A stretch of 32,801 nucleotides of DNA, taken from positions 1 to 32,801 of the forward strand of contig JAJRZN010000002.1 of assembly GCA_024275235.1 (NCBI GenBank), given 5' to 3'. The notes under the pieces are model-generated. The model was not told where the DNA came from. It ran no database searches and saw only the letters and a program-made list of their open reading frames with translations. The DNA comes from Deltaproteobacteria bacterium. GTDB lineage: Bacteria; Desulfobacterota; Desulfobulbia; Desulfobulbales; VMSU01. Of the stretch, positions 185 to 17,914 are shown piece after piece. The stretch's first letter is position 1, and the number at the start of each line of letters is the position of its first letter. A program made the translations under genes and the position numbers.

Positions 185-2152
185 CTATGGAGCCGCCGCT
201 GATTCCGCCTCTATATGGTCAACAGCCTCCTGCAGCTCTTCCCATTGAGGATATATTTTCTCTAATCGTTTGGTAATATTCTGATATTCCTTGCTTTTGT
301 CGGTAAAGGCCTCTTGATTATGATAAAGTTCCGGATCGGCCAGAATCTGTTCAAGGCTGCCCTTTTCGTTTTCCAGGGCTTCGATATCCCGTTCAAAGTC
401 AGCCAGTTTTTTCTTCAGAGGCTTGAGACGATGAGCTGCCGCCGCCCTGGCAGCGGCCTTTGCCTTACGAGCCTCCTTGCTTCTCGCCGCCTTGGGGATG
501 GACTTTTTTTGTAGTTCGGCCCTCTGTTTGTCCTTATTGTCTGTTCTTGAGCGGGTCTTCTCGAGATAATAACTGATGTTGCCCTCATATATGGTGGCCT
601 GGCCGTTTTTGATCTCTAAAACCTTATTGACGAAGCCGTCTAAGAAAAAACGATTATGGGAAACCACGATAATAGAGCCGTCATACTGCTTCATGGCCTC
701 CTGGAGAATATCCTGCGACATCATGTCTAAATGATTGGTAGGTTCATCCATAATCAGTAGATTAGCAGGCGACATAATCATTCTGGCCAGCGCCAGACGG
801 CTCTTTTCACCGCCTGAAAGCACCATTACCTTTTTGTCAACCTCGTCCCCTCTGAAGAGGAAGGTTCCCAGTAATGAGCGGGTGGAGGTAACTGTCTGCT
901 CAATATCAACCTGTTCCATGGTCTGCATTACGGTCAGGTCAGGGGCCAGTTCCTGGGCCTGGTGCTGGCCGAAATATGAAATACGACAATTATGGCCCGG
1001 CTGTATTGTTCCCGAGGTGGGGGTAATATGCCCGGCAATAATCTTGACCAGGGTGGATTTACCCGCCCCGTTAGCCCCAACCACCGCCACCTTGTCGCCA
1101 CGGTTGACCTCAAGGTTAAGCCCCTTAAAGACCTGCTTTTCGGCATAATTCATGGCCAGATTTTCGACTGTAACCGACATTCGGCCGCTGCTGATGGCGG
1201 GTGGAAAACGAAAAGATATTCGACTCTCACTATCTTCAAGCTCCAGAATGTCAAGTCGCGAGATTTGTTTGAGCCGGCTCTGAACCTGTTTGGCCTTGGT
1301 GGATTTGGCCCTGAATCTGGTTACAAAACGCATGGTTTGTTGAATCTTGGCCTGCTGGTTATTATAGGCCGCCCGTTGAACCGCCATTCTTTCGGCCTTC
1401 TCGGTGATATAATAGCTGTAATTCCCCTTGTAAACCGTCAGCCGTCCCAGGCTGAGTTCCCAGGTCATATTGGTTAAATTGTCGAGAAAGGCCCGGTCGT
1501 GGGAGATGATAATCATGGCTCCCTGGTATGATTTTAGGAAATCTTCCAGCCAGGTAAGTGATTCTATATCAAGATGATTAGTGGGCTCGTCCAAAAAAAC
1601 AAAAGAGGGGTGGGTGAGAAGAATTTTGGCCAGCATAATACGCATCTGCCAGCCGCCGCTGAAGTCACCACAATCACGGCTCATGTCTGAGCCGGAAAAA
1701 CCAAGTCCGCTTAAAACCTTCTCAATTTTGCCCTCAATATGAAAAAAATCGGAGCTGTCAAGCTGCATCTGTAACTCGCCCTGCTGCTGGAGAAGATCAG
1801 AAAAACCCGGGCTGCTGGGGTCAGTGGCGCTTAATTGATTATTAACCGCATCAAGCTCAGTCTGAATTTTCAGGAGATGGGCAAAGGCTGTTTCCGCCTC
1901 CTGGCGCAGGTTTCGGCCGGGAGCGAATCCTTCAAATTCCTGGGGCAGATAGCCGAGAGTGGATTTTTTAGATTTGCTGATGACTCCGAAATCGGTTTCC
2001 TGGTATCCGGCCATCATTTTCAGCAGGGTGGATTTGCCGGTGCCGTTAACCCCCACCAGGCCGACCCTGTCCTGACCGTTTAAACGGACGGAGATGTCCT
2101 TAAAAATGTGTTTATCACCGTATTGGAGATTGAGACTGTTAACCTGTAACAT
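185..2152 (-). CDS. ABC-F family ATP-binding protein (two tandem ABC domains)
   Basis: 655 aa with two Walker A motifs (GVNGTGKST, GANGAGKST), two signature motifs (FSGGW, LSGGEKSR), two DEPTNHLD Walker B motifs, and no membrane domain. Confidence 0.95.
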   Translation of the reverse strand: MLQVNSLNLQYGDKHIFKDISVRLNGQDRVGLVGVNGTGKSTLLKMMAGYQETDFGVISKSKKSTLGYLPQEFEGFAPGRNLRQEAETAFAHLLKIQTELDAVNNQLSATDPSSPGFSDLLQQQGELQMQLDSSDFFHIEGKIEKVLSGLGFSGSDMSRDCGDFSGGWQMRIMLAKILLTHPSFVFLDEPTNHLDIESLTWLEDFLKSYQGAMIIISHDRAFLDNLTNMTWELSLGRLTVYKGNYSYYITEKAERMAVQRAAYNNQQAKIQQTMRFVTRFRAKSTKAKQVQSRLKQISRLDILELEDSESRISFRFPPAISSGRMSVTVENLAMNYAEKQVFKGLNLEVNRGDKVAVVGANGAGKSTLVKIIAGHITPTSGTIQPGHNCRISYFGQHQAQELAPDLTVMQTMEQVDIEQTVTSTRSLLGTFLFRGDEVDKKVMVLSGGEKSRLALARMIMSPANLLIMDEPTNHLDMMSQDILQEAMKQYDGSIIVVSHNRFFLDGFVNKVLEIKNGQATIYEGNISYYLEKTRSRTDNKDKQRAELQKKSIPKAARSKEARKAKAAARAAAAHRLKPLKKKLADFERDIEALENEKGSLEQILADPELYHNQEAFTDKSKEYQNITKRLEKIYPQWEELQEAVDHIEAESAAAP

Positions 2153-2237
2153 ATTTAATAGTAGTGGTTGTGAAAGAAAATTGCTTGACGGTTAGAGCTT
2201 ATGGGGGAGGGCAAAGCTGAACAGTTACGGAAAAAAA

Positions 2238-2603
2238 TTATGATAGTATTTCATTTACGGCGGTAAGCAGAGTTTCCTTGGATACTGGTTTGGTTAGACT
2301 TTTTTTAACTCCAATGGTACAGGCCAGGCGCAGATAACGTTCAGCCTCGATAACTCCGCCGCCGGAAACGGCAATAATCCGCGTCTCGGGGAATACCTTA
2401 TCTAATTCCATGATCATTTTCAGGCCGTCTTTAACCGGCATAAGCATATCAGTGATAATCAGGTCAAAGGAATTATTTCGGCATAACTCCAGGCCTTCCT
2501 GGCCGTTTTCAGCGCAGGCAACCTCATGCCCCTCTTTTTTGAGAATTTTGGTAAATACCTTTCTTATTGCCGGGTCGTCGTCTACTAAGAGGATATGTGC
2601 CAC
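2238..2603 (-). CDS. Stand-alone response regulator receiver domain protein
   Basis: 121 aa CheY-like: HILLVDDDPAIRKV, phosphoacceptor LIITDMLMP, late K in LTKPVS. Confidence 0.9.
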   Translation of the reverse strand: MAHILLVDDDPAIRKVFTKILKKEGHEVACAENGQEGLELCRNNSFDLIITDMLMPVKDGLKMIMELDKVFPETRIIAVSGGGVIEAERYLRLACTIGVKKSLTKPVSKETLLTAVNEILS

Positions 2604-2637
2604 TTGTTTACCTTGTTAAAGCTATGAAAGAATGGAT

Positions 2638-2761
2638 GTAACTGTTCAGCAGCACCCCATTTCGGAGTCTACGCTTTCCTTGCCCATTTCGGACTTCTCG
2701 AATACCAAAGTATGCTTCGAAGTCCTAAATAAACAAACCTGGAGCACTGCTGAACAGTTAC
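2638..2761. repeat. Nested palindromic intergenic element A
   Basis: Outer arms GTAACTGTTCAGCAG (2638-2652) and CTGCTGAACAGTTAC (2747-2761) are exact inverse complements; inner imperfect hairpin GGACTTCTCGAATACCAAAGTATGCTTCGAAGTCC. Confidence 0.75.
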
Positions 2762-2843
2762 GCTCCGGGGTTTTCGTCACTTTCAGGCATCACGTTGAAT
2801 AGTTACGAATGATGGCGTCGTAGTTAACATGCTTGTCATGAAA

Positions 2844-2967
2844 CGAAAAGTCCGATCTACGGCGTTGTGGCGTTTCGGCAGACCTTCGGCATACCATATG
2901 TATGGCCGAAGTCCTGTCGAACCACCACGCCTCGCAGTCTACGCTTAGCTGTATATCGAACTTTTCG
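2844..2967. repeat. Nested palindromic intergenic element B
   Basis: Outer imperfect arms CGAAAAGTCCGATCTACGGC / GTATATCGAACTTTTCG; inner hairpin TTCGGCAGACCTTCGGCATACCATATGTATGGCCGAAGTCCTGTCGAA. Confidence 0.65.
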
Positions 2968-3003
2968 CAGTCTTCGCTTAGCTGACTTAGCCATCTTTAG
3001 TTA

Positions 3004-3030
3004 GTGATGGACTTTTTACGAGTCCATCAC
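3004..3030. repeat. Perfect 10-bp hairpin GTGATGGACT-ttttacg-AGTCCATCAC
   Basis: Arms 3004-3013 and 3021-3030, 7-nt loop; lies 3' of the MOSC gene on the minus strand, with no clear U-tract. Confidence 0.7.
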
Positions 3031-3089
3031 GAATGGATTATAAAAAATAACATAAAAAAACTTTAAATCCCACATTTTGTTAAAACTAA

Positions 3090-3524
3090 TTATTTTATAA
3101 AAAGTTCATCGCCGGTTCTGAGGACTCCGGGCTTGATAACCTTGGCGAAGATCCCCTCTCTCGGCATTATACAGTCGCCGACTTTTTTGGCGATATTGCA
3201 TTTATCATGGCATTTTTTACCAATCTGAGTAACCTCCAGCTCGATCTCTACAGATTGCAGTCTGGTGCCGACTGGCAGGGCCGGCAGATCAATCCCGCGG
3301 GTGGTAATGTTTTCAGCAAAGGAGCCGGGCGGCAGCTCGAGGTCGCTTCTCGATGCCAGCATCTTGTTGATGCTCTCAATGCCGAGGAGACTGATCTGGC
3401 GGTGCCAGTTTCTGGCGTGGGCATCGCCGATAATCCCATGATCAATTTTTAAGGTAACCTTTGAGACGGGTTTTTTCTCCATTCCCTTACTGAGGCTGAT
3501 ATTTAAAGAAACAATTGCTGCCAT
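3090..3524 (-). CDS. MOSC domain-containing protein
   Basis: 144 aa with the MOSC-like motif GKKCHDKCNIAKKVGDCIMPREGIFAKVIKPG. Confidence 0.88.
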   Translation of the reverse strand: MAAIVSLNISLSKGMEKKPVSKVTLKIDHGIIGDAHARNWHRQISLLGIESINKMLASRSDLELPPGSFAENITTRGIDLPALPVGTRLQSVEIELEVTQIGKKCHDKCNIAKKVGDCIMPREGIFAKVIKPGVLRTGDELFIK

Positions 3525-3610
3525 TATTTACTCCTTGGAGGTTGTTAATATAGGTATTCTACGGATTAAGGCAAGTTTGGTTGGCTGCGTCTCTCGTCTG
3601 GCCGGTTGAT

Positions 3611-4531
3611 TTAATCTGTAAAAAGCGGGGTGCTGAGGTAGCGTTCCCCGGTGTCAGGAAGGATGACCACCAGAGTTTTGTCCTTATTTTCCGGCCGGGC
3701 GGCTGTGTCAAGAGCGGCAAAGGCGGCGGCCCCGGATGATATACCGCAGAGGATGCCCTCGGTGGTACTTAACGAGCGTGCCGTTTGCATGGCCTCATCA
3801 TTACTGACCTGAAAGACTTCATCAATGATGGCGGTATTTAAAACCCTGGGGATAAAACCGGCGCCAATCCCCTGAATTTTGTGAGGCCCTGGTTGACCGC
3901 CGCTTAATACCGGGGAATCTCTGGGTTCAACCGCGATTATCTTGAGGTCGGGGTTTTTATCCTTTAAGACCTCGCCCGCTCCGGTAATTGTTCCCCCGGT
4001 TCCCACCCCGACAATAAATATGTCCACCTTACCCGCGCTATCCTGCCAGATTTCGGGGCCGGTGGTACGACGGTGAATCTCCGGGTTGGCGGGATTGCTG
4101 AACTGGCCCGGAATAAAGGAATCCTGGATTTCTGCCCCAAGCTGAACCGCCTTGTTAATGGCTCCCTTCATGCCCTCGGCTCCGGGGGTCAGGACGAGCT
4201 CGGCGCCGAGATGGCCCAGGAGGCGGCGGCGTTCGATACTCATGGTGTCGGGCATAGTCAGGATCAAGCGCAGCCCCCTGGCGGCGCATACCGAAGCCAG
4301 AGCAATACCTGTATTGCCGCTGGTGGCCTCAATGATTACGGTCTGGGCGGAAATTTCCCCGGCCGCCTCGGCCGCGGCGATCATCGCCTGGCCGATACGA
4401 TCCTTGACACTGCCAAGGGGGTTACGGGATTCAAGTTTGGCCAGAATGAGGGCCTGGCTCTGATTGAGGCGGTTTAAGCGGACAAGGGGGGTGCGGCCGA
4501 TAGTTTCGGTGAGGTTATTGTAGATACTCAT
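3611..4531 (-). CDS. cysK: Cysteine synthase (O-acetylserine sulfhydrylase)
   Basis: 306 aa; [26 protein letters not shown]-lysine motif, [28 protein letters not shown]. Confidence 0.95.
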
Positions 4532-4564
4532 AGCTTGACTCCTTGCGTGGGATGTGAAAAAAAA

Positions 4565-5530
4565 TTATTTGGCGGTCTTTCTGCCGCGGCCAAGGAAGGC
4601 CAGTTCCGGGCGTTTCAGTAAAACTTTGGTGTCTGGTTCGACACTCTCCGTGAGCCAGATATTACCGCCGATTACGGCTCTGGTACCGATGGTGGTTTCA
4701 CCGCCCAATATGGTAGTGTTGGCATAGATAATCACATCGTCCTCAATGGTTGGGTGGCGTTTGTGGTCGCGGTAGCGCTTTCCGGCATCACTGGGCAGGG
4801 AGAGGGCGCCCAGGGTTACTCCCTGATAGAGGCGCACCCGGCTGCCTATTTCAGTGGTTTCGCCAATGACCACCCCCGTGCCGTGATCAATGAAAAAACT
4901 GCCGCCGATGGAGGCGCCGGGGTGGATATCAATGCCCGTCAGACTGTGGGCGTGCTCGGTCATTATGCGGGGGATGATGGGCACCCCCAGTTTTAAAAGG
5001 ACGTGGGCCATGCGGTAAACATTGATGGCCAGCAGGCCGGGATAACTGAAGATGACTTCATCGGCCCCCTTGGCCGCCGGGTCGCCATCTAAGGCGGCCT
5101 GGATGTCAGAGGTGAGCATTACCTCCATCTCGGGCAGAGTCTCAATAAAGCGCAGGGCGATTTCATGGCCCTTGGGTCTGCAGGATGAACAGGGGAGGCT
5201 GCGCCGCACACAGTCATGTTGGAGGGCGAGAACTATCTGCTGGCTTAAATCGGCGTAAAGTTCCGTGGTTTCCTGGCCTAAAAAATAGGCCAGGTTGGAT
5301 TTTTTGAGCTTGGTACTGGTGAAGTAACCGGGAAACAGAAGGCTGCGGGCCTTGTGGATTATGCGGACTACGGCTTCATGGGAGGGCATGGGCGTTGGTT
5401 CAAGATGCTCAAAGCCCTCTTTGGTATTCCAGAAAGTCAGCAGGTTGTTTACTACCTCGGGAATCTGGTCGTAGAAGGCGCTGATCTGACTTTCTTCATC
5501 AACGCATTTGATTGTAGTTATTGGTTCCAT
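4565..5530 (-). CDS. cysE: Serine O-acetyltransferase (EpsC/CysE-like, left-handed beta-helix)
   Basis: GIDIHPGASIGGSFFIDHGTGVVIGETTEIGSRVRLYQGVTLGALS...RHPTIEDDVIIYANTTILGG hexapeptide repeats; next to cysK. Confidence 0.92.
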   Translation of the reverse strand: MEPITTIKCVDEESQISAFYDQIPEVVNNLLTFWNTKEGFEHLEPTPMPSHEAVVRIIHKARSLLFPGYFTSTKLKKSNLAYFLGQETTELYADLSQQIVLALQHDCVRRSLPCSSCRPKGHEIALRFIETLPEMEVMLTSDIQAALDGDPAAKGADEVIFSYPGLLAINVYRMAHVLLKLGVPIIPRIMTEHAHSLTGIDIHPGASIGGSFFIDHGTGVVIGETTEIGSRVRLYQGVTLGALSLPSDAGKRYRDHKRHPTIEDDVIIYANTTILGGETTIGTRAVIGGNIWLTESVEPDTKVLLKRPELAFLGRGRKTAK

Positions 5531-5546
5531 AATTAAAATCTGATCT

Positions 5547-6143
5547 TTAATGGCCGATTAAAAATATACCATAGGTGGCTCGAAGATTAGGCAGTAAACG
5601 AATAACCCGGCCATGAAGGTCTTCATTCTGGGTATTGATTCCCATTTCTCTGATAATTTTAAAGCCTGTTTTGTGGACAAATCCACGAAAATCTCTAAGG
5701 GTGATTACCCTGATATTAGGGGTGTTATACCAATCGTAGGGCAGCTGACTGGTAGTGGGTGTCCGGCCCATGAAAAAGAGCTGCATCCGGCACAGCCAGT
5801 GACTGAAATTTGGGAAACTCACCACTATACGGCGGCCGACGCGCAGTAATTCTTTCAGCAGGACCTCCGGTTCGTAGACCTGTTGCAGGGTGCGGCTCAG
5901 AATAACATAATCAAAGGTGTTGTCGGCATAATCCAAGACCTCTTCGTTGATATCTCCCTGAATAACCGAGATCCCCCGCTCGATACAACGGGCGATATTG
6001 GCTTCTTCAAAATCAATACCAGTACCCGTTACTTCCTTGTTATGCACCAGGAAATATAATAAATCTCCGCTGCCGCAACCCAGATCAAGTACTTTGGTAC
6101 CGGGTTCTATCCAGGAGGCGATTATCTCGAGATCAAAGCGCAT
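5547..6143 (-). CDS. metW: Methionine biosynthesis protein MetW (SAM-dependent methyltransferase-like)
   Basis: [32 protein letters not shown]; overlaps the 3' end of metX. Confidence 0.92.
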
Positions 6144-7278
6144 AACTCTGAGACTCCCGGCCCATTCTGTCTAAGAAGCCGCTCATAAGGTTTGACAGCC
6201 GTTCATTTTCCAGGAGAAAGGCGTCGTGGCCCCATTTGGCCTCTATCTCGCAGAAGCTTACGTCTAAGCTGTTCTTCTTCATGGCCTTGACCATGGCTCG
6301 TGACTCTCTGGTGGGGTAAAGCCAGTCTGAGGTGAAGGAGACCACGAGATAACGGGCTTTGGCTCTGGTAAAGGGCGATTTAAGGCTGCCATCGGCCTGA
6401 CGACGGGGAGCCAGGTCAAAATAATCTGCCGCCTTGGTGATATACAAAAAGGAGTTGGCGTCGAAACGTTCGACGAACTTTTTACCCTGATAACGCAGAT
6501 AGCTCTCAACCTGAAAGTCGGCATCAAAATTAAAGGAGAAGTCTTCTTTGTCCTGTAAGCGGCGGCCAAATTTATGGCGCATGGCCTCGTCTGAGAGATA
6601 GGTGATATGGCCAATCATGCGGGCTACGGCCAGGCCCATATCCGGTTTAGTGCCCTGGTAATAATTGCCATCCTGCCAGTTTGGGTCAGCCATAATCGCC
6701 TGACGGGCCACTTCGTTAAAGGCGATGGCCAGGGCGGAATGACGCTGGGTGGTGGCGAGAAGAATGGCGGAAAATACCATCTCCGGATAGCGGATACTCC
6801 ATTCCAGGCCCTGCATGCCGCCGATGGAGCCGCCGATTACTGCCAAAAGGCGGGGAATGCCCAGAAAATCAATGAGCTGTTTCTGGGCCTTGACCATGTC
6901 GGCAATGGTAATTACCGGAAACTGCAGGCCGTAGGCCAGGCCGGTGGCAGGGTTAAGGCTTGAGGGGCCGCTGGTCCCCATACAGCTCCCCAGTATATTA
7001 GAACAAACAACAAAATATCTGTTGGTGTCAATGGCCTTGCCGGGGCCGATCATGATCTCCCACCAGCCGGGTTTGCCGGCCCCGGCATGGAAACCAGCGG
7101 CATGGGCATCACCGGACAGGGCGTGACAGATTAAAATGGCGTTGTCGGCCGCCTTGTTTAATTCCCCGTAGGTCTCGTAGGCAATTATTCCCTCATGGAG
7201 AGAGTCGTTATTGTCTAATAGCAGAGAACCAGGAAGTCGAAAATATTTAGTTTCAGTCGGGCCGATTGTTTTTTTCAT
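6133..7278 (-). CDS. metX: Homoserine O-acetyltransferase
   Basis: alpha/beta hydrolase fold, [26 protein letters not shown] nucleophile elbow, C-terminal GHDAFLLE. Confidence 0.95.
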
Positions 7279-7289
7279 GGCCGAATAGA

Positions 7290-8573
7290 TTACAGCGCCT
7301 GCTCCAAATCAGCAATAATATCTTCTATGTTTTCGATACCGATGGACAGGCGGATAAAATCCTCTGTGACCCCGGCCTCTATCTGCTGTTCAGGAGTCAT
7401 CTGCGAGTGGGTGGTACTGGCTGGGTGGATGGCCAGCGATTTCGCGTCACCCACGTTGGCGAGATGCGAGAAGACCGTGAGGCTCTCAATAAATTCGCGG
7501 CCGGCCGCCAGTCCGCCCTTGATACGAAACCCCACCATACCGCCAAAACCATTATGGAGATATTTCAGGGCCTGCTCGTGGCTGGGATGTTCGGTCAGGC
7601 CGGGGTACATAACCTCGCTTACCTTGGGATGCTCCTGGAGGAAGCGGGCGGCGGCCAGGGCGTTTTCGCTGTGACGTTCCATGCGCAGGGCCAGGGTCTC
7701 TAAGCCCTGCAAAAAGAGAAAAGCGTTAAAGGGGCTCATACAGGGGCCCAGATCTCTGATAAAACGGGATTTTAACTTGACGATATAGGCCAGTTGGCCG
7801 AATTCATCTAAATAATTCAGGCCGCCCCGGTAAGAGGGATCGTCGGCGCTGAGGTCGGGGAATTTGCCGCTGCTCCAGTCGAATCTGCCGGAATCGACCA
7901 CCAGACCGCCGATGGAGGTGCCGTGGCCGCCGATCCATTTGGTGGCTGAGTGGATGATTATATCCGCGCCATGTTCAAAGGGACGGCAGAGACAGGGGGT
8001 GGCAAAGGTGTTATCAATAATCAGGGGAATACCTGCCTCATGGGCGACTGTGGCCGCTCCGGCGATATCCAGAACGTTAAGCTTCGGATTGCCGATGGTC
8101 TCGGCGAAAACGGCCTTGGTCTTTCCGTCAATGGCCTCTTTTATGCTCTGGGGGTCGGGGTCGACAAATTTAACCTCAATACCGAATTTCTGGCGGAAGG
8201 TGAGGTCAAAAAGGGTATAGGTGCCGCCGTATATGGAGTTTGAGGCCACAATATTGTCACCATTACCGGCAATGGTGAGCAAAGCCATGAAGGTGGCCGA
8301 TTGCCCCGAGGACAGGGCGGCTCCGGCCAGCCCGCCCTCTAAGCTGGCGATGCGGGCCTCCAGAGCTTCATAGGTGGGATTGGTGAAGCGGTTGTATATT
8401 TCTCCAGGGAAATCAGGGGCACGCAGGGCGAAAAGATTGGCCGCCTGTTCGGTATTTTCAAATATATAAGAGGCGGTCTGGAATATGGGAACCGCCCTGG
8501 CCCTGGTAGTGGAATCCGGGGTGTAACCGCTGTGCAGGGCCCTGGTGTTAAAACCTAATTTAGATTCTGACAT
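7290..8573 (-). CDS. metY: O-acetylhomoserine aminocarboxypropyltransferase/sulfhydrylase (PLP Cys/Met metabolism family)
   Basis: 427 aa; [65 protein letters not shown]. Confidence 0.95.
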
Positions 8574-8592
8574 ATGCTGCTCCTTTCATAGC

Positions 8593-9003
8593 TTATTTTG
8601 TTGATTCTGACTCCGGCTCTTCAAAGTTCTTTATCAGAGAGACCAAGACCTCACATTGGCGGCAGACGGACATTTTATCCTGCCAGGTTTTCTTAGCCTG
8701 GCACTCGCAGATGGTACCGTTTATAAACCAACAGAGTTTACCGGCCTGGAACTCCCAGGCCGGACATTTATTGCGGCGTTTAGGGGGGCATTTTTTTACC
8801 TCCCAGCATGGTTTTATCTTTTTTTCATCGTTGCCAAGTCTGGATAAAAGAAAAAATATCTGCCGTTCGATATGGGCCGGTATTTTACGCCATCCCTGCT
8901 CGTAGCTGTGAACGGCCTTTAGTGAAACTCCCAGAAGCTCGGCCATTATTTTTTGGGTTTTTCCCAGGCGCTTGCGAACCGCGAGAAATTCAGCACTGAT
9001 CAT
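8593..9003 (-). CDS. Helix-turn-helix regulator fused to a cysteine-rich 'two-CW'-type domain
   Basis: N-terminal HTH (RLGKTQKIMAELLGVSLKAVHSYEQGWRKIP); C-terminal CWEVKKCPPKRRNKCPAWEFQAGKLCWFINGTICECQ...DKMSVCRQCEV; 19 nt upstream of metY. Confidence 0.85.
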   Translation of the reverse strand: MISAEFLAVRKRLGKTQKIMAELLGVSLKAVHSYEQGWRKIPAHIERQIFFLLSRLGNDEKKIKPCWEVKKCPPKRRNKCPAWEFQAGKLCWFINGTICECQAKKTWQDKMSVCRQCEVLVSLIKNFEEPESESTK

Positions 9004-9021
9004 AATACCACCGATGGTGAC

Positions 9022-9050
9022 TAACGGTTTTAATATAACATAAACCGTTA
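9022..9050. promoter_or_regulatory. Inverted repeat TAACGGTTT-N11-AAACCGTTA, candidate operator of the HTH/metY operon
   Basis: Perfect 9-bp arms (9022-9030, 9042-9050) just upstream of the minus-strand HTH start codon. Confidence 0.5.
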
Positions 9051-9092
9051 ATTATAGAGTATAAGAAGTGAAAGAAATACATGAAATGATTA

Positions 9093-9111
9093 AATACCAC
9101 ATTGTGGTATT
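9093..9111. promoter_or_regulatory. 19-bp palindrome AATACCACA-T-TGTGGTATT in the divergent intergenic region
   Basis: Perfect 9-bp arms around one central base, between the sulfur operon (-) and purM (+). Confidence 0.5.
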
Positions 9112-9392
9112 GATGGCAAGTAAAAAAACAAAAAATGAGCTGTCAATTTATTTAGCTGCACAAAAGTTTGTGAGGGTGGGGGGGAATAAGGGCAATAGAC
9201 ATTGTTCGTGAGAAATATCCGAACCGGATCGCAGGCCGGGGATAATTTAAGTTTTCCGGTAAGCAAAATGGGATAATATAAATTGACTTTTGTGGTCTCG
9301 AAGATTAAAAAGTAAGGTTGGCTGTCTGACATTTTTCTTTGGTGGGCTGTTGGGGCAGAAAATACTATAACTATATGGAATTACAGAAAATT

Positions 9393-10448
9393 ATGACCGA
9401 TAAAAAATCAAAATATGCCGAAGCTGGTGTTGATATTGATAAGGCCAATGCTTTTGTTGATAATATAAAACCTCTTGTTGCCGCTACTTTTCAACGCGGC
9501 GTGTTAACGGATATTGGCGGTTTTGGCGGGCTTTTCGCTCTGGGCAGCGGCCGTTATCAGGATCCGGTGCTGGTTTCCTCCACTGACGGTGTGGGTACTA
9601 AATTAAAAATTGCCGAATTGTGCGGCTGTCACGATACCATTGGCATTGATCTGGTGGCTATGTGCGTGAATGACGTTATTGTCTCCGGGGCCCGGCCGCT
9701 TTTTTTCCTGGATTATTTTTCCATGGGGGTTTTGGATATAGAGCAGGCCAGTGATGTGGTAAAAGGGGTTGCCAGGGGCTGCCAGATTTCTAAATGTTCA
9801 CTCATTGGCGGCGAAACGGCAGAGATGCCGGGGCATTATGCCGCCGGTGCCTATGACCTGGCCGGTTTTTCCGTTGGTATTGTGGAGCGCGATGCCATTA
9901 TTGACGGTTCTGAAATCAGGGTGGGGGATAAAATTATCGGGCTGGGTTCAAGCGGTATCCATAGTAATGGCTATTCTCTGGTGCGTAAAGTCTGTTTTGA
10001 GGAACTTGGCCTCAAGGTTGATGATTATATCGACGAACTGGGTTGCTCTCTCGGAGAGGAACTTTTATGTCCCACCAGAATTTACACCGAGACGATACTT
10101 AATATAATCAAGAATTTCCCAGTTCGGGGGCTGGTGCATATTACCGGCGGCGGTTTTATTGATAATATCCCGCGAATTCTGCCCAAAGGCTGTCGGGCGG
10201 TTATTGACCGTAATTCCTGGCCGCTGCTGCCGATTTTTGAATTTCTGCGCCATGGCGGTAAGATAAGCGGATCTGATATGTACCGTACCTTTAACTGTGG
10301 GATCGGTATGGTTATGATCGTGGGGTCAAAGTCTGTTGAAGATGTTATTATGCAGCTTGAGGCTCTCGGTGAAAAGGCCTATGTTATCGGTGAGATATCC
10401 GCCTGCCAGGGTGAATCGTGCCCCGCTGTGGAGATGGACGGCCTCTGA
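9393..10448 (+). CDS. purM: Phosphoribosylformylglycinamidine cyclo-ligase
   Basis: KYAEAGVDIDKANAFVDNIKPLV, DGVGTKLKIA, GGETAEMPGHY, GLGSSGIHSNGYSLVRK; start uncertain (alternatives at 9375 and 9339 in the same frame). Confidence 0.95.
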   Translation: MTDKKSKYAEAGVDIDKANAFVDNIKPLVAATFQRGVLTDIGGFGGLFALGSGRYQDPVLVSSTDGVGTKLKIAELCGCHDTIGIDLVAMCVNDVIVSGARPLFFLDYFSMGVLDIEQASDVVKGVARGCQISKCSLIGGETAEMPGHYAAGAYDLAGFSVGIVERDAIIDGSEIRVGDKIIGLGSSGIHSNGYSLVRKVCFEELGLKVDDYIDELGCSLGEELLCPTRIYTETILNIIKNFPVRGLVHITGGGFIDNIPRILPKGCRAVIDRNSWPLLPIFEFLRHGGKISGSDMYRTFNCGIGMVMIVGSKSVEDVIMQLEALGEKAYVIGEISACQGESCPAVEMDGL

Positions 10449-10457
10449 AATTTCAAG

Positions 10458-10491
10458 CGGTAGAGCAAGGCATACCTGCCTTGCTCTACCG
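10458..10491. terminator. Strong hairpin between convergent purM and moaB/mogA, possible bidirectional transcript end
   Basis: Perfect 15-bp arms CGGTAGAGCAAGGCA (10458-10472) / TGCCTTGCTCTACCG (10477-10491), 4-nt loop; overlaps the stop codon of the minus gene; no clear T-tract. Confidence 0.6.
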
Positions 10492-10983
10492 GCCGCAATC
10501 GGCCGTACCGCCCTTTATTTTGTAAATAGCGTGAGGCAGAGCGTCAAGAACAACAGCGATATTTTCCTGGGCCGCTTTTTTGCTGCCCGGCAGATTTATA
10601 ATCAGGCAATTACCCCTGATCCCGCATATGGCGCGGGAGAGGATAGCATGGGGGGTTATTTTGAAGCTTGCCCGGCGCATGGCCTCGGCAAGTCCCGGTA
10701 ACTCACGGTCAATGACCCGTCTTGTGGCCTCTGGCGTCACATCGCCGGGGCTGACTCCGGTGCCGCCGGTGGTGATGATGAGATCAAGCTCCCTGATGTC
10801 AGCCCAGTCTATTAAGGTGGTTGAGATTATCTTCTCGTTATCGGGAATAATTTGGTAGGAGCCGATTTTAAAGCCGGCGGCCTCCATTATTTTCTGCAGG
10901 TTCTTTCCGCTGGTATCTTCACGTTTGCCCCTTGAGCCCTTGTCGCTCATAGTCAGAATTCCGCAGCTGTATTCGGCCCCCAC
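10486..10983 (-). CDS. MoaB/MogA-family molybdenum cofactor biosynthesis protein
   Basis: ILTMSDKGSRGKREDTSGKNL...LIITTGGTGVSPGDVTPEATRRVIDRELPGLAEAMR; GTG start overlapping the stop codon of the EF-G-like gene. Confidence 0.9.
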   Translation of the reverse strand: MGAEYSCGILTMSDKGSRGKREDTSGKNLQKIMEAAGFKIGSYQIIPDNEKIISTTLIDWADIRELDLIITTGGTGVSPGDVTPEATRRVIDRELPGLAEAMRRASFKITPHAILSRAICGIRGNCLIINLPGSKKAAQENIAVVLDALPHAIYKIKGGTADCGR

Positions 10984-13034
10984 TATGCCTCCTCGTTAAT
11001 GATTTTTTCGGTCAACTGAGCCGGTAACTCCTCGTAATGGGAAAATTCGTTTATGAAACTGCCCAGCCCGCCGGTAATGGCAATGAGCTGGGAGCCGTAC
11101 TCCTGAATTTCGGCCATGGGGGCCTGCACCTTGATTATCTCACCGTCCGGAGCGGAATCCATGCCCATGACCCGGCCGCGGCGGCTGTTAATATCACCGA
11201 TGACATCGCCTACATAGTCTTTGGGTACGGTAATGGTGAGGCTCATTATCGGTTCTAATAATACCGGATTGGCCTCTAAGGCCCCCTTTTTAAAGGCCAT
11301 GGAGCCGGAGATTTTAAAGGCCATCTCTGAAGAGTCAACATTATGAAAGGAACCGTCCACCAGTGAGACCTTGACATCAACCATGGGATAGCCGGCAATT
11401 ACCCCCTTGGCGATGGCCTCCTGGACGCCTTTGTTGACGGCCGGTATATACTGTTTGGGAATTACACCGCCGACGATTTCATCGACAAATTCATAACCTC
11501 CTCCCCTGGGAAGGGGCTCAATCTGCAGCCAGTTATCGGCATATTGTCCCCGGCCGCCGGACTGCTTTTTGTGCTTGTATTGTACCCTGGCTTTACCGCG
11601 AATGGTCTCCTTGTAAGGGACTTTGGGCAGTTTCAGCTCCATGCCGACCCCGAATTTGCGCTGTATTTTCTCGCCGGTGATCTGCAGGTGAATTTTACCG
11701 GTACCGGAAATTAAGACCTCGTTGGTCTGTTTTTCCCGGCCCAGTCGCAGAGTGGGATCTTCGGCCAGCATCTTGCTGAGGGCGGCAAAGAGCTTATCCT
11801 CGTCATCTTTTTTGGCGCCTGAGACCGCGTAGGTGACGGTGGGACGCAAAGCCTCCGGCATGTCAAAGATGATGGGCCGCTCGGCAAGGCACAGAGTGTC
11901 GCCCGTTTCAGTGTATTTCAGTTTAGTGACCGCGGCGATCATTCCGGCTTCCACCTCCGGCACAGGGTGATGCTCTTTACCCTCCATAATAAGCAGCTGG
12001 CCAAATTTTTCGTTTTTATCCTTATTGGCATTGTAGAATGTGTCGCCGGATAATTTCCCGGAGATAACCTTGAATATGGTGAGACGACCGGCGTAAGGAT
12101 CGGCCATGGTTTTGAATACCAGGGCCGAGAAAGGGGCGTCTGTTGTGGGTGGCAGCTCAACTATATCGCCGCTGCCGGGGACGGTGCCGACCCTGGGCGG
12201 CATTTCCGCCGGGGCGGGCAGGAGACCGATAATGGTATCCAAAAGTGGTTGAACCCCCATGCTGACCGCGGCTCCAGCCAGTATCGGGCATAATTTTGCC
12301 TCTCGTACCGCCCGCCGCAGACCTTCTTTTATCTCGCTGTCCTTTAAGCTGCCTTCTTCCAGAAATTTTTCGATAAGATCGTCATCCGTTTCAGCCACGG
12401 ACTCCATGAGTGCTTCACGCCAGAGCGCGGCCTCCTCCACCATCTCGGCCGGGATGTCGGTCTCGGTGAATTCTCCGCTTTCATCTTTGAGGAAGGCCTT
12501 TAAGGTCAGCAGGTTGATAACCCCCCTGAAATTATCCTCTGCTCCCACGGGGATTTGAATTACCGCGGTCTTAAAGGGGAGATCCTCTTTAATGCCATTG
12601 ACGGCGGCATTAAAATCAGCCCGTTCGCGATCCATTTTGTTGATGAAAATAAGGGCGGGCCGCTGGTTGTTGAAGATAAAGTCAGCGATCTTGGCTGTCT
12701 GGTTTTTGATGCCTAACACGGCGCCAACAATGAAGACGGCGCTGTCAACCACCTGGGCCGCAAAAAAGGCGTCATTTAAAAAATTGTCATCGCCGGGTGT
12801 GTCGGTGAGAAATATATCGTGCTTTTTCCAGGTACAGCGGTTGAAAGAGGAATTTATACTGAGTTTATGGTTGATTTCCTCGGGCTCAAAATCCATCAAC
12901 GCTGAGCCGTCATCGACCTTGCCTAAACGGGAGTTTTTCCCGCAGGTATATAATATGGCCTCCGCGAGGGAGGTCTTGCCGCATTTGCTGTGCCCGAAGA
13001 TACCAACGTTTCTGATAAGACGTGCTTCTTTCAT
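10983..13034 (-). CDS. Elongation factor G-like translational GTPase (EF-G paralogue)
   Basis: 683 aa; G1 GHSKCGKTSL, DTPGDDNF, INKMDRERADF, EF-G domains IV/V (SGGRGQYADNWLQIEPL...FVDEIVGGVIPKQYIPAVNKGVQEA). Confidence 0.92.
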   Translation of the reverse strand: MKEARLIRNVGIFGHSKCGKTSLAEAILYTCGKNSRLGKVDDGSALMDFEPEEINHKLSINSSFNRCTWKKHDIFLTDTPGDDNFLNDAFFAAQVVDSAVFIVGAVLGIKNQTAKIADFIFNNQRPALIFINKMDRERADFNAAVNGIKEDLPFKTAVIQIPVGAEDNFRGVINLLTLKAFLKDESGEFTETDIPAEMVEEAALWREALMESVAETDDDLIEKFLEEGSLKDSEIKEGLRRAVREAKLCPILAGAAVSMGVQPLLDTIIGLLPAPAEMPPRVGTVPGSGDIVELPPTTDAPFSALVFKTMADPYAGRLTIFKVISGKLSGDTFYNANKDKNEKFGQLLIMEGKEHHPVPEVEAGMIAAVTKLKYTETGDTLCLAERPIIFDMPEALRPTVTYAVSGAKKDDEDKLFAALSKMLAEDPTLRLGREKQTNEVLISGTGKIHLQITGEKIQRKFGVGMELKLPKVPYKETIRGKARVQYKHKKQSGGRGQYADNWLQIEPLPRGGGYEFVDEIVGGVIPKQYIPAVNKGVQEAIAKGVIAGYPMVDVKVSLVDGSFHNVDSSEMAFKISGSMAFKKGALEANPVLLEPIMSLTITVPKDYVGDVIGDINSRRGRVMGMDSAPDGEIIKVQAPMAEIQEYGSQLIAITGGLGSFINEFSHYEELPAQLTEKIINEEA

Positions 13035-13124
13035 GAAACCTCCTCCTTGCTGTTATGGCAGACCTGATGAATATTGTCGCCTTTATGGCTAATATAATGC
13101 GCCGGGCTTGTCAATTGAAAAACT

Positions 13125-13157
13125 GTAACTGTTTAGCTGCACCCAATCCGGAGTCTC
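13125..13157. repeat. Dispersed half-copy of the element A left arm
   Basis: GTAACTGTTTAGCTGCACCCAATCCGGAGTCT is close to 2638 GTAACTGTTCAGCAGCACCCCATTTCGGAGTCT. Confidence 0.65.
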
Positions 13158-13303
13158 ACAGGCTCGCTTACCTGAATTGTATTTTATGAACTTGGTACCC
13201 GGTTGATATAAAATTGTGTTATAATTAAATTTGTTTGATTTTACAGCCAGTCAGTAATTAAGTAAAAACAAAAAGAGAAAAGGCGGAAAGGAGAAATATT
13301 GAG

Positions 13304-15472
13304 ATGAAGGGGATTTATATTCAATTGTTCAGCGTCCATGGTCTGGTACGTGGAGAAGCCCCGGAATTAGGCAGGGATGCCGATACCGGAGGGCAGGTAA
13401 AATATGTTCTGGAGTTGGCCCGGGCCCTGGCTTGTCAGCCTGAAGTGGCCCAGGTTGATCTCTTTACCCGTCTCATTGAGGATAAAAGATTATCGCCCTC
13501 CTATGCCAGACCCATTGAGCCTCTTAATGATAAGGCCCGGTTGATCCGCCTGCCGTGCGGCGGGCGGAAATATATCAGGAAAGAGCTGCTCTGGCCTCAT
13601 TTGGATGAATTTGTTGACCGTACGGTTCGTTTTATCCGCAATGAAGGGCGGATTCCTGACTTTTTTCACGGTCATTATGCCGATGGCGGCTATGTGGCTC
13701 AGGAACTGGCCCGTATTTTCGGGATGCCCTTTATCTTTACCGGACATTCCATGGGACTGCATAAAAAGAACCGGCTGTTAAGTGAAGGAGCTAAAGAACA
13801 GGAATTACAACGTAAATACCAGATTGATTACCGAATAGAGGTGGAGGAAAAGATTATTGAGAACGCCGAGTTGATCATAACTTCCACCAACCATGAATTA
13901 AAAAATCAATACGGCCTTTACCGGAATCATGAGAGCGGCCGCTATGCCGTTATTCCGCCGGGTATTGACGTTGATATCTTTTACCCCTATTACGATAACG
14001 AAATTGATCCAAATCACAGCGATGAGGTCTCAAAGCAGGCCCACATGACCCTGATAAATGAGTTGCAGCGCTTCTGGGTTGGACCTCAAAAACCATTTGT
14101 TCTGGCCCTTTGCCGTCCAGATCAGCGTAAAAATATCTCCGGTCTCATAACCGCTTATGGTGAGGATCTGGAGTTGCAGGCCATGGCTAATCTGGCCATC
14201 TTTGCCGGAATCAGAAAAAATATTACCGAGATGGAGGAGAATGAACAGAATGTCTTGACCGAAATGCTGCTTCTCATGGATCAATATGATCTTTATGGCA
14301 AGATGGCCATTCCCAAGAAACATAATTTCAGTCTTGAGGTTCCGGAACTTTACCGGCTCTGCGCCAGCGGCGGCGGCGTTTTTGTCAATCCCGCTCTTAT
14401 CGAGCCTTTTGGTCTTACCCTTATTGAGGCCGCCTCCTGCGGGGTACCAATTGTTGCCACCAACGATGGGGGGCCGGCGGATATTATCGGTAACTGTGAT
14501 AATGGCTTTCTGGTTGATCCCACTGACAGCTCGGCTATTGCCGTGGCCTGTAAAAATATTATAACTGATCATGATTTATGGAATAAATTTTCCCGTAACG
14601 GTATTAATGGTATCCGTAGTCATTATTCCTGGAGCTCACATTGCGCTAAAATGCTTAAAGAAATTACCGAAGTGAAGGATAAAATGCCTCTTGTCACCCA
14701 CCGTAGAGCCCATACCAAGGTAAGTGGTATAGGGCGGCGTTTGACCAGGGTAAACAGGCTGCTGGTCACCGATATAGATAATACCCTGGTGGGAGACGAC
14801 GAGGCCATGAAGAAGCTGCTGGCCGTGCTTGATGACTCGCGTCAGATCATGGCCTGGGGGGTAGCTACCGGCCGCTGCCGGGAGATGATGTGTGATATTC
14901 TGGAGGAATATGGAGTTCCCCTGCCGGACATAATGATTACCTCGGTGGGTACAGAGATATATTACGGCGCTCTCATGGAAGAAGACCGCGGCTGGCAGCG
15001 GCATTTAAGTTATCGCTGGCGGCCGGAGGCGGTTATGGAGGTCATGGCTGGTCTGGACTTTGTGGAGCTGCAGGAAGAAGACGCCAGGCGCCGTTACAAA
15101 TTGAGTTATTATATGGAGGATGATCCGGAGATGCTGGCCGAGGTTCATCGTCGTCTGCACGAGGCCAGGCTGCGCTCCCATGTGGTTTATTCCCACGGCC
15201 AGTTTCTGGATATCCTGCCTTTACGGGCCTCCAAGGGCAAGGCGGTACGCTATTTGAGTAATAAATGGGGCATTCCTTTGACTAATATTATGGTATGCGG
15301 TGATTCCGGCAACGATCTGGAGATGCTGCGTGGCGAGACCTGCGGCGTGGTTGTGGGGAATTACAGTAAGGAACTGGAACCTCTTAAAGGGCTGCGTAAG
15401 CTCTATTTCAGCAAACAGGAATATGCCGCCGGTATTATTGACGGTATAGCTCACTATGGCTTTATCAAATGA
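13304..15472 (+). CDS. Sucrose-phosphate synthase with fused C-terminal HAD sucrose-phosphatase-like domain
   Basis: GT4 motifs (DTGGQVKYVLELARAL, GHYADGGYVA, EPFGLTLIEAA) plus HAD motifs VTDIDNTLVGDD and CGDSGNDLEML. Confidence 0.93.
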   Translation: MKGIYIQLFSVHGLVRGEAPELGRDADTGGQVKYVLELARALACQPEVAQVDLFTRLIEDKRLSPSYARPIEPLNDKARLIRLPCGGRKYIRKELLWPHLDEFVDRTVRFIRNEGRIPDFFHGHYADGGYVAQELARIFGMPFIFTGHSMGLHKKNRLLSEGAKEQELQRKYQIDYRIEVEEKIIENAELIITSTNHELKNQYGLYRNHESGRYAVIPPGIDVDIFYPYYDNEIDPNHSDEVSKQAHMTLINELQRFWVGPQKPFVLALCRPDQRKNISGLITAYGEDLELQAMANLAIFAGIRKNITEMEENEQNVLTEMLLLMDQYDLYGKMAIPKKHNFSLEVPELYRLCASGGGVFVNPALIEPFGLTLIEAASCGVPIVATNDGGPADIIGNCDNGFLVDPTDSSAIAVACKNIITDHDLWNKFSRNGINGIRSHYSWSSHCAKMLKEITEVKDKMPLVTHRRAHTKVSGIGRRLTRVNRLLVTDIDNTLVGDDEAMKKLLAVLDDSRQIMAWGVATGRCREMMCDILEEYGVPLPDIMITSVGTEIYYGALMEEDRGWQRHLSYRWRPEAVMEVMAGLDFVELQEEDARRRYKLSYYMEDDPEMLAEVHRRLHEARLRSHVVYSHGQFLDILPLRASKGKAVRYLSNKWGIPLTNIMVCGDSGNDLEMLRGETCGVVVGNYSKELEPLKGLRKLYFSKQEYAAGIIDGIAHYGFIK

Positions 15473-15505
15473 TAATTACGTGATTTTTAATTTCAGGGGT
15501 TAGAT

Positions 15506-17914
15506 ATGAGTAAAAATCTGCAAAATTTTGTTGATGAAGAAGAATTACCGGTGCTGCGGGAATTCTTATTCTCTCTGCCCGATAACCTGCCGGGGCCGAT
15601 TATTCTGCGTAATGATATTATGCACGCTTTCAAGCTGTATCTTCAGGGGCTGGAGCAGGATGGGGATATGCCGGGAGCCTGGCTGTTTCTAGGCCGGATT
15701 CAGGAATTGATGCGGATGGATGACCGTTTAGTTTTTATCTTTCGCCGCCAGCGGGCTCGAAGCCGAATCTATGAGATACAGCGGCGGGATAATAAATTAA
15801 AGCAGTTGACGGTGAAGGATTTTTTGACCATTAAAGAGAAACTGCTCTACCCGGATCTGCCGGTCAATGAACGAACCAGCCTGGAGGTCAACCTGGCCCC
15901 CTTCTATGATTACGGCCCCCATCTTAAAGATCCGGATTCCATTGGCCAGGGGATAAAGCATCTTAATCGTTATATGTCCACCAATCTGGTGCATGAACCG
16001 GATAAAATGAACAGTGCCCTTTATGAGTTTTTGAAGCTCCATCATCTTCACGGCCGCCAGTTGCTCTTAGATGGCAGTCTGGTTCGTAACAGCCGGGAGT
16101 TAGAGACGGTTCTGGAGGACGCCGTTGATATAATTGAACGTCGCCGGGAGAATGAAGGGCCGGGCTTTTTACGTCATAAACTGGCGGCCCTGGGGCTGCT
16201 GGATGGCTGGGGGAACAGTGCTGTCCGTATCCTTGAGACCATTAACCTCCTCCGGGATGTGTTGCAGCAGCCAGATGAGAACAACTTAGAGGAGTTCCTG
16301 GCCAGGGTGCCCATGGTCTCCAAGGTGGCCCTGATTTCACCGCATGGCTGGTTTGGTCAGAAAAACGTCCTTGGCCGTCCTGATACCGGCGGCCAGGTGG
16401 TCTATGTCCTTGATCAGGCCTGCGCCATGGAACAGTATATGCGCAAGGATTTACGGCTTTCCGGCCTGGAAATCAAGCCGCGGATTGTCATTGTTACCCG
16501 TTTGATTCCCGAAAATGACGGCACTACCTCCGATCAGTGCCTGGAAAAGGTTGATGGTACGGATAATGTCTGGATCTTAAGGGTACCGTTCCGTGATCAT
16601 AATGGTGAAATTGTCCCTTACTGGATGTCAAGATTTAAGGTCTGGCCCTATCTCGAACGGTTTTCCCGGGAGGCGGAGCAGGAGATCATGCTTGAGCTGG
16701 GCGGCCGTCCCGATCTTATAGTCGGCAATTATTCCGATGGTAACCTGGTGGCCACCAAACTCTCCAAACGGCTCGGGGTTATTCAATGCAATATCGCTCA
16801 CGCCCTGGAGAAATCTAAATATCTCTTCAGCGATCTTTACTGGCATGATTTTGAGGAGCAGTATAATTTTTCTATTCAGTTCATGGCTGACCTCATCGCC
16901 ATGAATCTGACCAACTTTATCATCACCTCCACCAGTCAGGAGATCAGTGGTACCGAGAGCTCCATTGGTCAATATGAATCGTATCAGTTTTTTATTATGC
17001 CCGGCCTGATGAAGGTGGTGAGCGGTATTCAATTATTTCATCCCCGCTTTAATGTTATCCCGCCGGGGGTCAATAACAGGGTTTTTTATCCCTACACCTT
17101 GAAAAAGCGGAAGGCAGAGGTCATGGAGGAGATGAACCGCATCCTCTTTGAGGCGCAGGATGAATCGTGTCTGGGCTATTTGGAACGGCCTGAACTGCCG
17201 CCGATATTTTCCATTGCCCGTCTCGACCGGATTAAAAATCTCACCGGTCTTGTGGAGGCCTATGGCCGGAATCCGGAGCTCATGGCCACGGCCAATATGG
17301 TGATTATTGCCAGCGTCATTAATCCTGATAACTCCAATGATCAGGAGGAAAAGTCCGAAATCAACCGGATGCATGAGCTTATTAATGAACTGGGGCTGGC
17401 TGGTCATATCCGCTGGATTGGCCGGCGATTGTCCAAAGAGCAAACCGGTGAGGCCTATCGGGTGGTTGCCGACCGCAAGGGGATATTTGTGCAGCCCGCC
17501 CTGTTTGAGGCCTTTGGTCTCACCATTCTGGAGGCCATGCATTCAGGACTGCCGGTTTTCGCCACTAAGTTTGGCGGCCCTCTGGAGATAATTAAGGACG
17601 GGATAAGCGGGTTTCTGATTAATCCCACTGAATATGAGCAGATGAGTAATCGTCTCTTAAATTTTTTTAAGGATGCCGGGAACAGGAGAGGGTATTGGCA
17701 GAAGATTTCCAAAGCTGGTCTGCAACGGGCTAGTTCCCGTTTTACCTGGGAGCGTCATTGTCAGATGCTGACCCGGCTTACCAAGGTTTATGGCTTTTGG
17801 CGTTATTCCATCTCCAATCAGGCTAAGTCCCGGCTTAGTGAGTATTGTCATCTGCTCTATGAGCTGTATTTCAAGGAGCGGGCCGGGCGGCTTGTTGAAC
17901 CGCGTGGGGAGTAA
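15506..17914 (+). CDS. Sucrose synthase
   Basis: 802 aa; VALISPHGWFGQKNVLGRPDTGGQVVYVLDQACAME, NYSDGNLVATKLSKRLGVIQCNIAHALEKSKY, ARLDRIKNLTGLVEAYG, FVQPALFEAFGLTILEAM. Confidence 0.95.
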   Translation: MSKNLQNFVDEEELPVLREFLFSLPDNLPGPIILRNDIMHAFKLYLQGLEQDGDMPGAWLFLGRIQELMRMDDRLVFIFRRQRARSRIYEIQRRDNKLKQLTVKDFLTIKEKLLYPDLPVNERTSLEVNLAPFYDYGPHLKDPDSIGQGIKHLNRYMSTNLVHEPDKMNSALYEFLKLHHLHGRQLLLDGSLVRNSRELETVLEDAVDIIERRRENEGPGFLRHKLAALGLLDGWGNSAVRILETINLLRDVLQQPDENNLEEFLARVPMVSKVALISPHGWFGQKNVLGRPDTGGQVVYVLDQACAMEQYMRKDLRLSGLEIKPRIVIVTRLIPENDGTTSDQCLEKVDGTDNVWILRVPFRDHNGEIVPYWMSRFKVWPYLERFSREAEQEIMLELGGRPDLIVGNYSDGNLVATKLSKRLGVIQCNIAHALEKSKYLFSDLYWHDFEEQYNFSIQFMADLIAMNLTNFIITSTSQEISGTESSIGQYESYQFFIMPGLMKVVSGIQLFHPRFNVIPPGVNNRVFYPYTLKKRKAEVMEEMNRILFEAQDESCLGYLERPELPPIFSIARLDRIKNLTGLVEAYGRNPELMATANMVIIASVINPDNSNDQEEKSEINRMHELINELGLAGHIRWIGRRLSKEQTGEAYRVVADRKGIFVQPALFEAFGLTILEAMHSGLPVFATKFGGPLEIIKDGISGFLINPTEYEQMSNRLLNFFKDAGNRRGYWQKISKAGLQRASSRFTWERHCQMLTRLTKVYGFWRYSISNQAKSRLSEYCHLLYELYFKERAGRLVEPRGE

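Follow-up and report, generated by a model that had tools for sequence, protein, structure and literature searches.

A helix-turn-helix gene at the head of a met/cys operon

The window analysed here is the whole stretch of 32,801 nucleotides from the start of contig JAJRZN010000002.1 (assembly GCA_024275235.1), which belongs to a deltaproteobacterium of the order Desulfobulbales. On its minus strand, positions 8593–9003 encode a protein of 136 residues with an ATG start (hereafter the regulator, in anticipation of its proposed role), which consists of an N-terminal helix-turn-helix (HTH) domain (approximately residues 1–56; 8836–9003, minus strand) and a cysteine-rich two-CW domain (residues 65–122; 8638–8811, minus strand). 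Because orthologues in the genus are 94–96% identical and 56 of 58 related genomes contain a match to part or the whole of the protein, often as several paralogues, a chance open reading frame is ruled out.

Profile searches placed residues 65–122 in the NCBIfam family NF045718 (two_CW_domain) at 46.7 bits (cut-off 35), and a separate NF045718 search of the window's own genome recovered the same domain at 48.1 bits; Pfam, searched with the regulator, has no model for it. The HTH is clear, although its Pfam scores stay below gathering level (HTH_3 at 19.3 versus 23, with the remaining HTH models likewise below) and an RstR match is also sub-threshold. In the AlphaFold model, pLDDT exceeds 90 for residues 1–50, and the short Foldseek matches to this part are XRE repressors that superpose at about 1.1–2.2 Å over some 50 residues with weak E-values, including C.Kpn2I at 1.4 Å over 52 columns; the fold is of the lambda/Cro type. 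The cysteine-rich domain is modelled with low confidence (pLDDT mostly about 53–79), and Foldseek returned no match to its fold, the XRE-type HTHs being the only ones listed. A sequence search of solved structures gave marginal HTH matches and nothing else.

The first-pass annotation had proposed this two-domain architecture and suggested a profile search for the two-CW domain; the reading frame and the above-cut-off NF045718 match bear it out. Its count of about nine cysteines and three tryptophans is corrected here to eight (C66, C72, C80, C91, C99, C101, C114, and C117) and four (W67, W83, W92, and W107) in the cysteine-rich part. Seven of the cysteines are invariant across 56 aligned homologues, the exception being C101, which is replaced by glycine in some relatives.

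The genes that follow on the minus strand encode enzymes of sulfur amino acid synthesis. The first is metY (O-acetylhomoserine sulfhydrylase; 7290–8573; TIGR01326, 614.7 bits versus a cut-off of 495), whose start codon at 8573 lies exactly 19 nt from the regulator gene. After a gap of 11 nt comes metX (homoserine O-acetyltransferase; 6133–7278; NF001209, 535.8 bits versus 331), which metW (5547–6143; TIGR02081 over cut-off) overlaps by 11 nt, and then an N-terminally extended cysE-like serine acetyltransferase gene (4565–5530), with strong scores below cut-off (TIGR01172, 152.1 bits versus 210.65; NF041874 EpsC, 148.2 bits versus 150), and cysK (cysteine synthase A; 3611–4531; TIGR01139, 449.9 bits versus 351). 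A MOSC-domain gene (3090–3524; PF03473 over gathering score) lies 86 nt past cysK; it is retained after cysK in some relatives and likely marks the end of the operon. Profile identities and the measured gap thus agree with the earlier description of a regulator 19 nt upstream of metY heading metY-metX-metW-cysE-cysK-MOSC.

Rfam at gathering score matched no family in window positions 2000–13500, and control of metY by a SAM/SAH riboswitch was rejected, the leader having no Rfam match. Elsewhere in the window, positions 13304–17914 carry a pair of glycosyltransferase genes of the sucrose-synthase/sucrose-phosphate-synthase-like type with a sugar kinase-like gene after them, all recognised from sequence.

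Homologues and their genomic settings

A scan of public genomes returned 457 relatives of the regulator. The best 80 of these are titled Desulfobulbales, Desulfobulbaceae, Desulfurivibrionaceae, generic Deltaproteobacteria, some Desulfobacterales/Desulfobacteraceae, and one Spirochaetales, the last probably a binning error. Genes for HTH–two-CW fusions head metY/metX/metW/cysE/cysK loci in several families. Within the window's family the adjacent MetY is 78–100% identical, whereas other families have a distant MetY (about 40–45%) at the same place, and in some loci MetY is missing after the regulator. Two distant MetY lineages (about 41% identical) directly follow the regulator when the window's gene (7290–8573) is compared with loci L038, L041, L042, L044–L048, L069, L074, and others, suggesting replacement in place. 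What stays constant downstream of the regulator is cysteine/homocysteine synthesis rather than one set of orthologues. In one same-genus assembly (G002), the regulator–met operon is present twice; the additional copy (L040; G002:C44) is 74% identical and also located beside purM and mog, which may reflect a duplication or a mixed bin.

At some loci without metYX, the regulator homologue precedes an HcyBio/DUF39 gene (PF01837, 511 bits) and a NIL-ferredoxin gene; at others, it precedes a ThiI-like/ThiF-like/cysteine desulfurase/cysK set. In Desulfovibrio, proteins of the DUF39 and NIL/ferredoxin types form homocysteine by a route that is free of homoserine (PMC5764234). Since the regulator heads metYX loci in some genomes and DUF39/NIL loci in others, it tracks sulfur incorporation over two unrelated pathways, and this comparison of loci predicts a tie to the incorporation of sulfur, not to any single set of genes.

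In a tree of 74 full-length homologues, met-linked and other genes are strongly clustered (7 changes versus about 22 in shuffles). A survey of homologues had been proposed as a way to refute the sulfur link; sulfur-unrelated settings do exist, but they mostly belong to other paralogue clades. One such paralogue is present in the window's own genome (L067; G000:C17:13129–13506), where it directly follows an NAD-dependent epimerase gene and has no TACCAC operator upstream. A further HTH–two-CW clade is located after DAHP synthase II, and another heads mnmA–mtaB–cinA, genes of partly sulfur-dependent tRNA modification, in a palindrome-free arrangement (L098, with similar layouts in L088 and L102). 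Sulfur regulation is not ascribed here to other paralogue clades such as that on G000:C17. The two-CW domain itself is more widespread: the own genome encodes a third two-CW protein (G000:C190:23956–24195), and larger proteins with such domains, some as tandem pairs, are common in these genomes (L105, L106, L107, L108, and others).

A conserved palindrome in the regulator promoter

The new result relative to the first-pass annotation is a perfect palindrome upstream of the regulator gene, TACCACATTGTGGTA (TACCAC-N3-GTGGTA; 9095–9109), which extends to AATACCACATTGTGGTATT at 9093–9111, again perfect (9+1+9). This candidate operator falls inside 9004–9140, the stretch earlier named for a mobility shift assay. 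The form TACCACNNNGTGGTA has a single exact copy in the own genome, at the regulator's own promoter, which is likewise the sole exact site in several same-family genomes. In other families, the same arms recur ahead of the met-linked homologues. In a set of 80 loci, TACCACNNNGTGGTA is present within 350 bp upstream of met/cys-linked loci exactly in 28/50 cases and with at most one mismatch in 39/50, compared with 7/25 for the remaining loci; the loci are related, the sets used to discover the motif and to test it initially were related too, the 80-locus set overlaps the first locus set, and the counts are therefore descriptive, not independent. None of 4000 shuffled upstream sequences came within one mismatch of TACCACNNNGTGGTA. 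Recognisable sites are missing at some met-linked homologues, namely L038 (4 mismatches), genus g8 of family f5 (3), and the second G002 copy L040 (2). Among sites pre-selected at one mismatch or fewer, all 12 arm positions are 89–100% constant and the centre is variable, as expected for the binding site of a dimer.

The palindrome is embedded in a predicted sigma70-type promoter (9089–9119, minus strand) with a −35 box TTGCCA (9119–9114), a 19-bp spacer that contains the palindrome, and a −10 box TTTAAT (9094–9089), so that about 80 nt of leader precede the regulator start. This geometry recurs: in 36 of 58 distinct homologous sites, a −35 box with at least five of six matches to TTGACA begins 9–12 bp ahead of the palindrome, a placement (offset −12 to −9) that shuffles give in about 1.6% of cases, and other offsets occur hardly ever. 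With the −35 box so placed, the palindrome occupies the interval between −35 and −10. This interval is the classical position of a repressor, and from the sequence geometry the regulator probably represses rather than activates.

An activator that acts in the fashion of MerR, bound within an over-long spacer of 18–20 bp and realigning the promoter once its cysteine domain is loaded, would also fill the spacer with its palindrome, and best-fit spacers are indeed often 18–20 bp with weak −10 boxes. We consider this unlikely, as the HTH is XRE/Cro-like and not of the MerR type, the spacer has the normal length of 17 bp at 15 of 45 sites, and a good −35 box is absent at some sites.

The leader contains, between promoter and start codon, another perfect inverted repeat, TAACGGTTT-N11-AAACCGTTA (9022–9050), largely conserved in two same-genus genomes, which may be an RNA hairpin or a second operator.

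The conservation of both operon context and operator with sulfur genes across families also bears on the nature of the protein. Weak matches of the HTH to the RstR, Y4mF, and MqsA families could point to a protein related to MqsA/RstR that resembles an antitoxin or phage repressor, has a zinc domain of structural function, and plays no part in metabolism. Given that these matches lie far below cut-off, that a toxin partner is absent, and that the sulfur context is conserved, such a role is very improbable.

Further candidate targets and the identity of the binding protein

The window's genome has one exact site, and genomes of other families have as many as nine (reversed control, 0–1). Two kinds of neighbourhood recur at these sites. 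One is a divergent arrangement of DUF2339 and a cytochrome c–TtrB/NrfC/DsrO-like Fe-S–NrfD gene set (about 15 genomes); the other is a secreted beta-propeller gene with an FtsX/MacB permease gene (about 12 genomes), from which an ABC/thioredoxin/NosL operon diverges. Propionate/acetate-CoA ligase, a YcaO protein, porin-like proteins, and a solute symporter-like protein are rarer neighbours, and a Sulf_transp (YedE-like) protein is found near some sites. The candidate target set is functionally mixed.

Both modules are present in the own genome, on contig C18. Allowing one mismatch yields 9 sites in this genome versus 7 for the control, that is, no numerical enrichment, yet two of the eight one-mismatch sites fall exactly in the divergent intergenic regions of the two modules: TACCACTCAGTGGCA at C18:5254, with TTGACA nearby, between the propeller gene and the ABC–thioredoxin–NosL–FtsX operon, and TACCACTTTGTGGTG, located at C18:14868 where cytochrome c and DUF2339 diverge. 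At eight sites per 2.79 Mb, about 0.002 would be expected by chance in those 650 bp. The credibility of these two sites derives solely from their position at orthologous targets. Same-family genomes retain one-mismatch versions at most module positions, the propeller module of G005 having a two-mismatch candidate at best. Only 14 of 82 non-autoregulatory sites show the −35 geometry, and the regulator may thus act differently at different targets. From these site positions, the regulator most likely also controls the cytochrome c/Fe-S/NrfD plus DUF2339 module and the beta-propeller/FtsX plus ABC/thioredoxin/NosL module, and the small predicted regulon is phylogenetically supported. The earlier proposal of a dedicated sulfur-assimilation regulator accordingly survives in part: the sulfur link is strengthened by the met/cys context in several families, the switch of homocysteine pathway, and the conserved palindrome, whereas the word "dedicated" no longer fits, with sites also at two other modules, including in the own genome.

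Three lines of evidence connect the palindrome to the regulator itself. In three f3 genomes (L086, L089, and L093), an HTH–two-CW gene immediately precedes the beta-propeller/FtsX pair at which the site is found elsewhere. In two 99%-complete genomes that yielded no HTH–two-CW fusion (G017 and G033), a module is retained but lacks any site within two mismatches, whereas G038 has both the gene and an exact site; G032 is of no use as a control, as its contig ends inside the module. Finally, the sole exact site in the own genome and in several close relatives is at the regulator's own promoter. On these comparisons, the regulator likely binds the palindrome and autoregulates, and a conserved palindrome is indeed present in its own promoter.

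The occurrence of the palindrome at many functionally mixed promoters in several families could instead mean that it belongs to a different global regulator, of which the HTH–two-CW gene is merely one target, and in G036 six exact sites were found with no HTH–two-CW gene in the assembly. That assembly is only 86% complete, however, and a separate global regulator would account poorly for the finding that the own and several same-family genomes have their one exact site at the regulator promoter, for the adjacency of HTH–two-CW genes to a target module in the f3 genomes, and for the lack of sites at orthologous targets where no such gene was found. We regard it as improbable.

A model for sulfur-linked autorepression

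We propose, with a probability of about 0.7, that the regulator is a one-component autorepressor of the met/cys operon that uses its cysteine domain as a sensor and acts on two further modules. In this model, the HTH, presumably as a dimer, would bind TACCAC-N3-GTGGTA between the −35 and −10 boxes of the operon's single likely promoter and exclude RNA polymerase; a site in this interval should bring about repression of the regulator and of metY-metX-metW-cysE-cysK(-MOSC). The two-CW domain, with its seven invariant cysteines, would be the probable sensor, either through a bound metal or Fe-S cluster or through modification of the domain by sulfide, persulfide, or thiol, and its state would alter DNA affinity with the sulfur or metal state of the cell. 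The conserved cysteines and the list of predicted targets, which spans sulfide incorporation, NosL, thioredoxin-like and HMA proteins, and an electron-transfer complex, would fit the sensing of sulfide/persulfide, an Fe-S cluster, or a sulfide-sequestered metal.

The signal alone is at issue in a reading that otherwise overlaps this model, in which the primary signal is a metal (copper or zinc) and the sulfur genes are controlled as sulfide and metals constrain each other. The second module, with its NosL, thioredoxin-like lipoprotein, two ABC systems, and, in some genomes, a nearby HMA protein, would fit a metal signal, as would the seven invariant cysteines of the two-CW domain. Yet the most constant target, and the sole exact one in the own genome, is cysteine/homocysteine synthesis, and no copper efflux gene is among the targets examined, and we regard a primary metal signal as less likely than not.

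The autorepressor model makes the regulator a likely switch of a previously undescribed sulfur-linked gene set, as judged from sites and gene neighbourhoods. More tentatively, and at somewhat less than even odds, the two-CW domain could be a novel kind of sensor for the status of sulfur or of a sulfide-coupled metal, and the HTH–two-CW protein the master regulator of a Desulfobulbales regulon that ties sulfur amino acid synthesis to a cytochrome c/Fe-S/NrfD electron-transfer complex and to NosL/ABC/thioredoxin trafficking. Many of the organisms considered here inhabit sulfide, and how its incorporation is governed is the question that this analysis addresses. It supplies a candidate factor, an operator, a promoter geometry, and a short target list, all directly testable, and an initial functional entry point for the two-CW domain, found in many proteins encoded by these genomes.

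Comparison with known systems

The deltaproteobacterial methionine regulators reported so far cover the Desulfovibrionales and Desulfuromonadales (PMC4239095). SahR, an ArsR-family regulator responsive to S-adenosylhomocysteine in these two orders, acts on methionine metabolism in sulfate reducers and their relatives, as is proposed here for the regulator, but it belongs to another HTH family, its reported role is in the SAM cycle and not in metYXW-cysEK, and the groups listed for it do not include the Desulfobulbales (PMC4239095). A SahR-type identity was rejected, as the regulator has no ArsR-type match and its HTH is Cro-like. Literature searches for the palindrome motif and for a Desulfobulbales regulator retrieved nothing relevant, and a search on the two-CW domain accession retrieved no function or paper.

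Proteins of NF045718 share the C-terminal domain of the regulator above cut-off, many of the other matches sitting in larger proteins. That family takes its name from sequence alone, and the regulator differs by its HTH fusion and its tie to an operator. MqsA is likewise a small protein that combines a cysteine-rich (zinc) domain with a Cro-type HTH; MqsA identity was rejected, with TIGR03830 at 22.2 versus a cut-off of 61.8 bits, a reversed domain order, and met/cys genes as neighbours in place of a toxin partner.

The XRE/Cro repressors C.Kpn2I, HipB, and P2 C have the HTH fold in common with the regulator, and repressors of this type act at palindromic operators over core promoters. In members that carry a C-terminal sensor or dimerisation domain the overall plan is similar, the regulator differing in that its own cysteine-rich C-terminal domain has no structural match. 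CstR, SqrR, and IscR are one-component factors that sense sulfur or Fe-S status through cysteines, as proposed here for the regulator; by description, they are set apart from it by other HTH families and another cysteine architecture.
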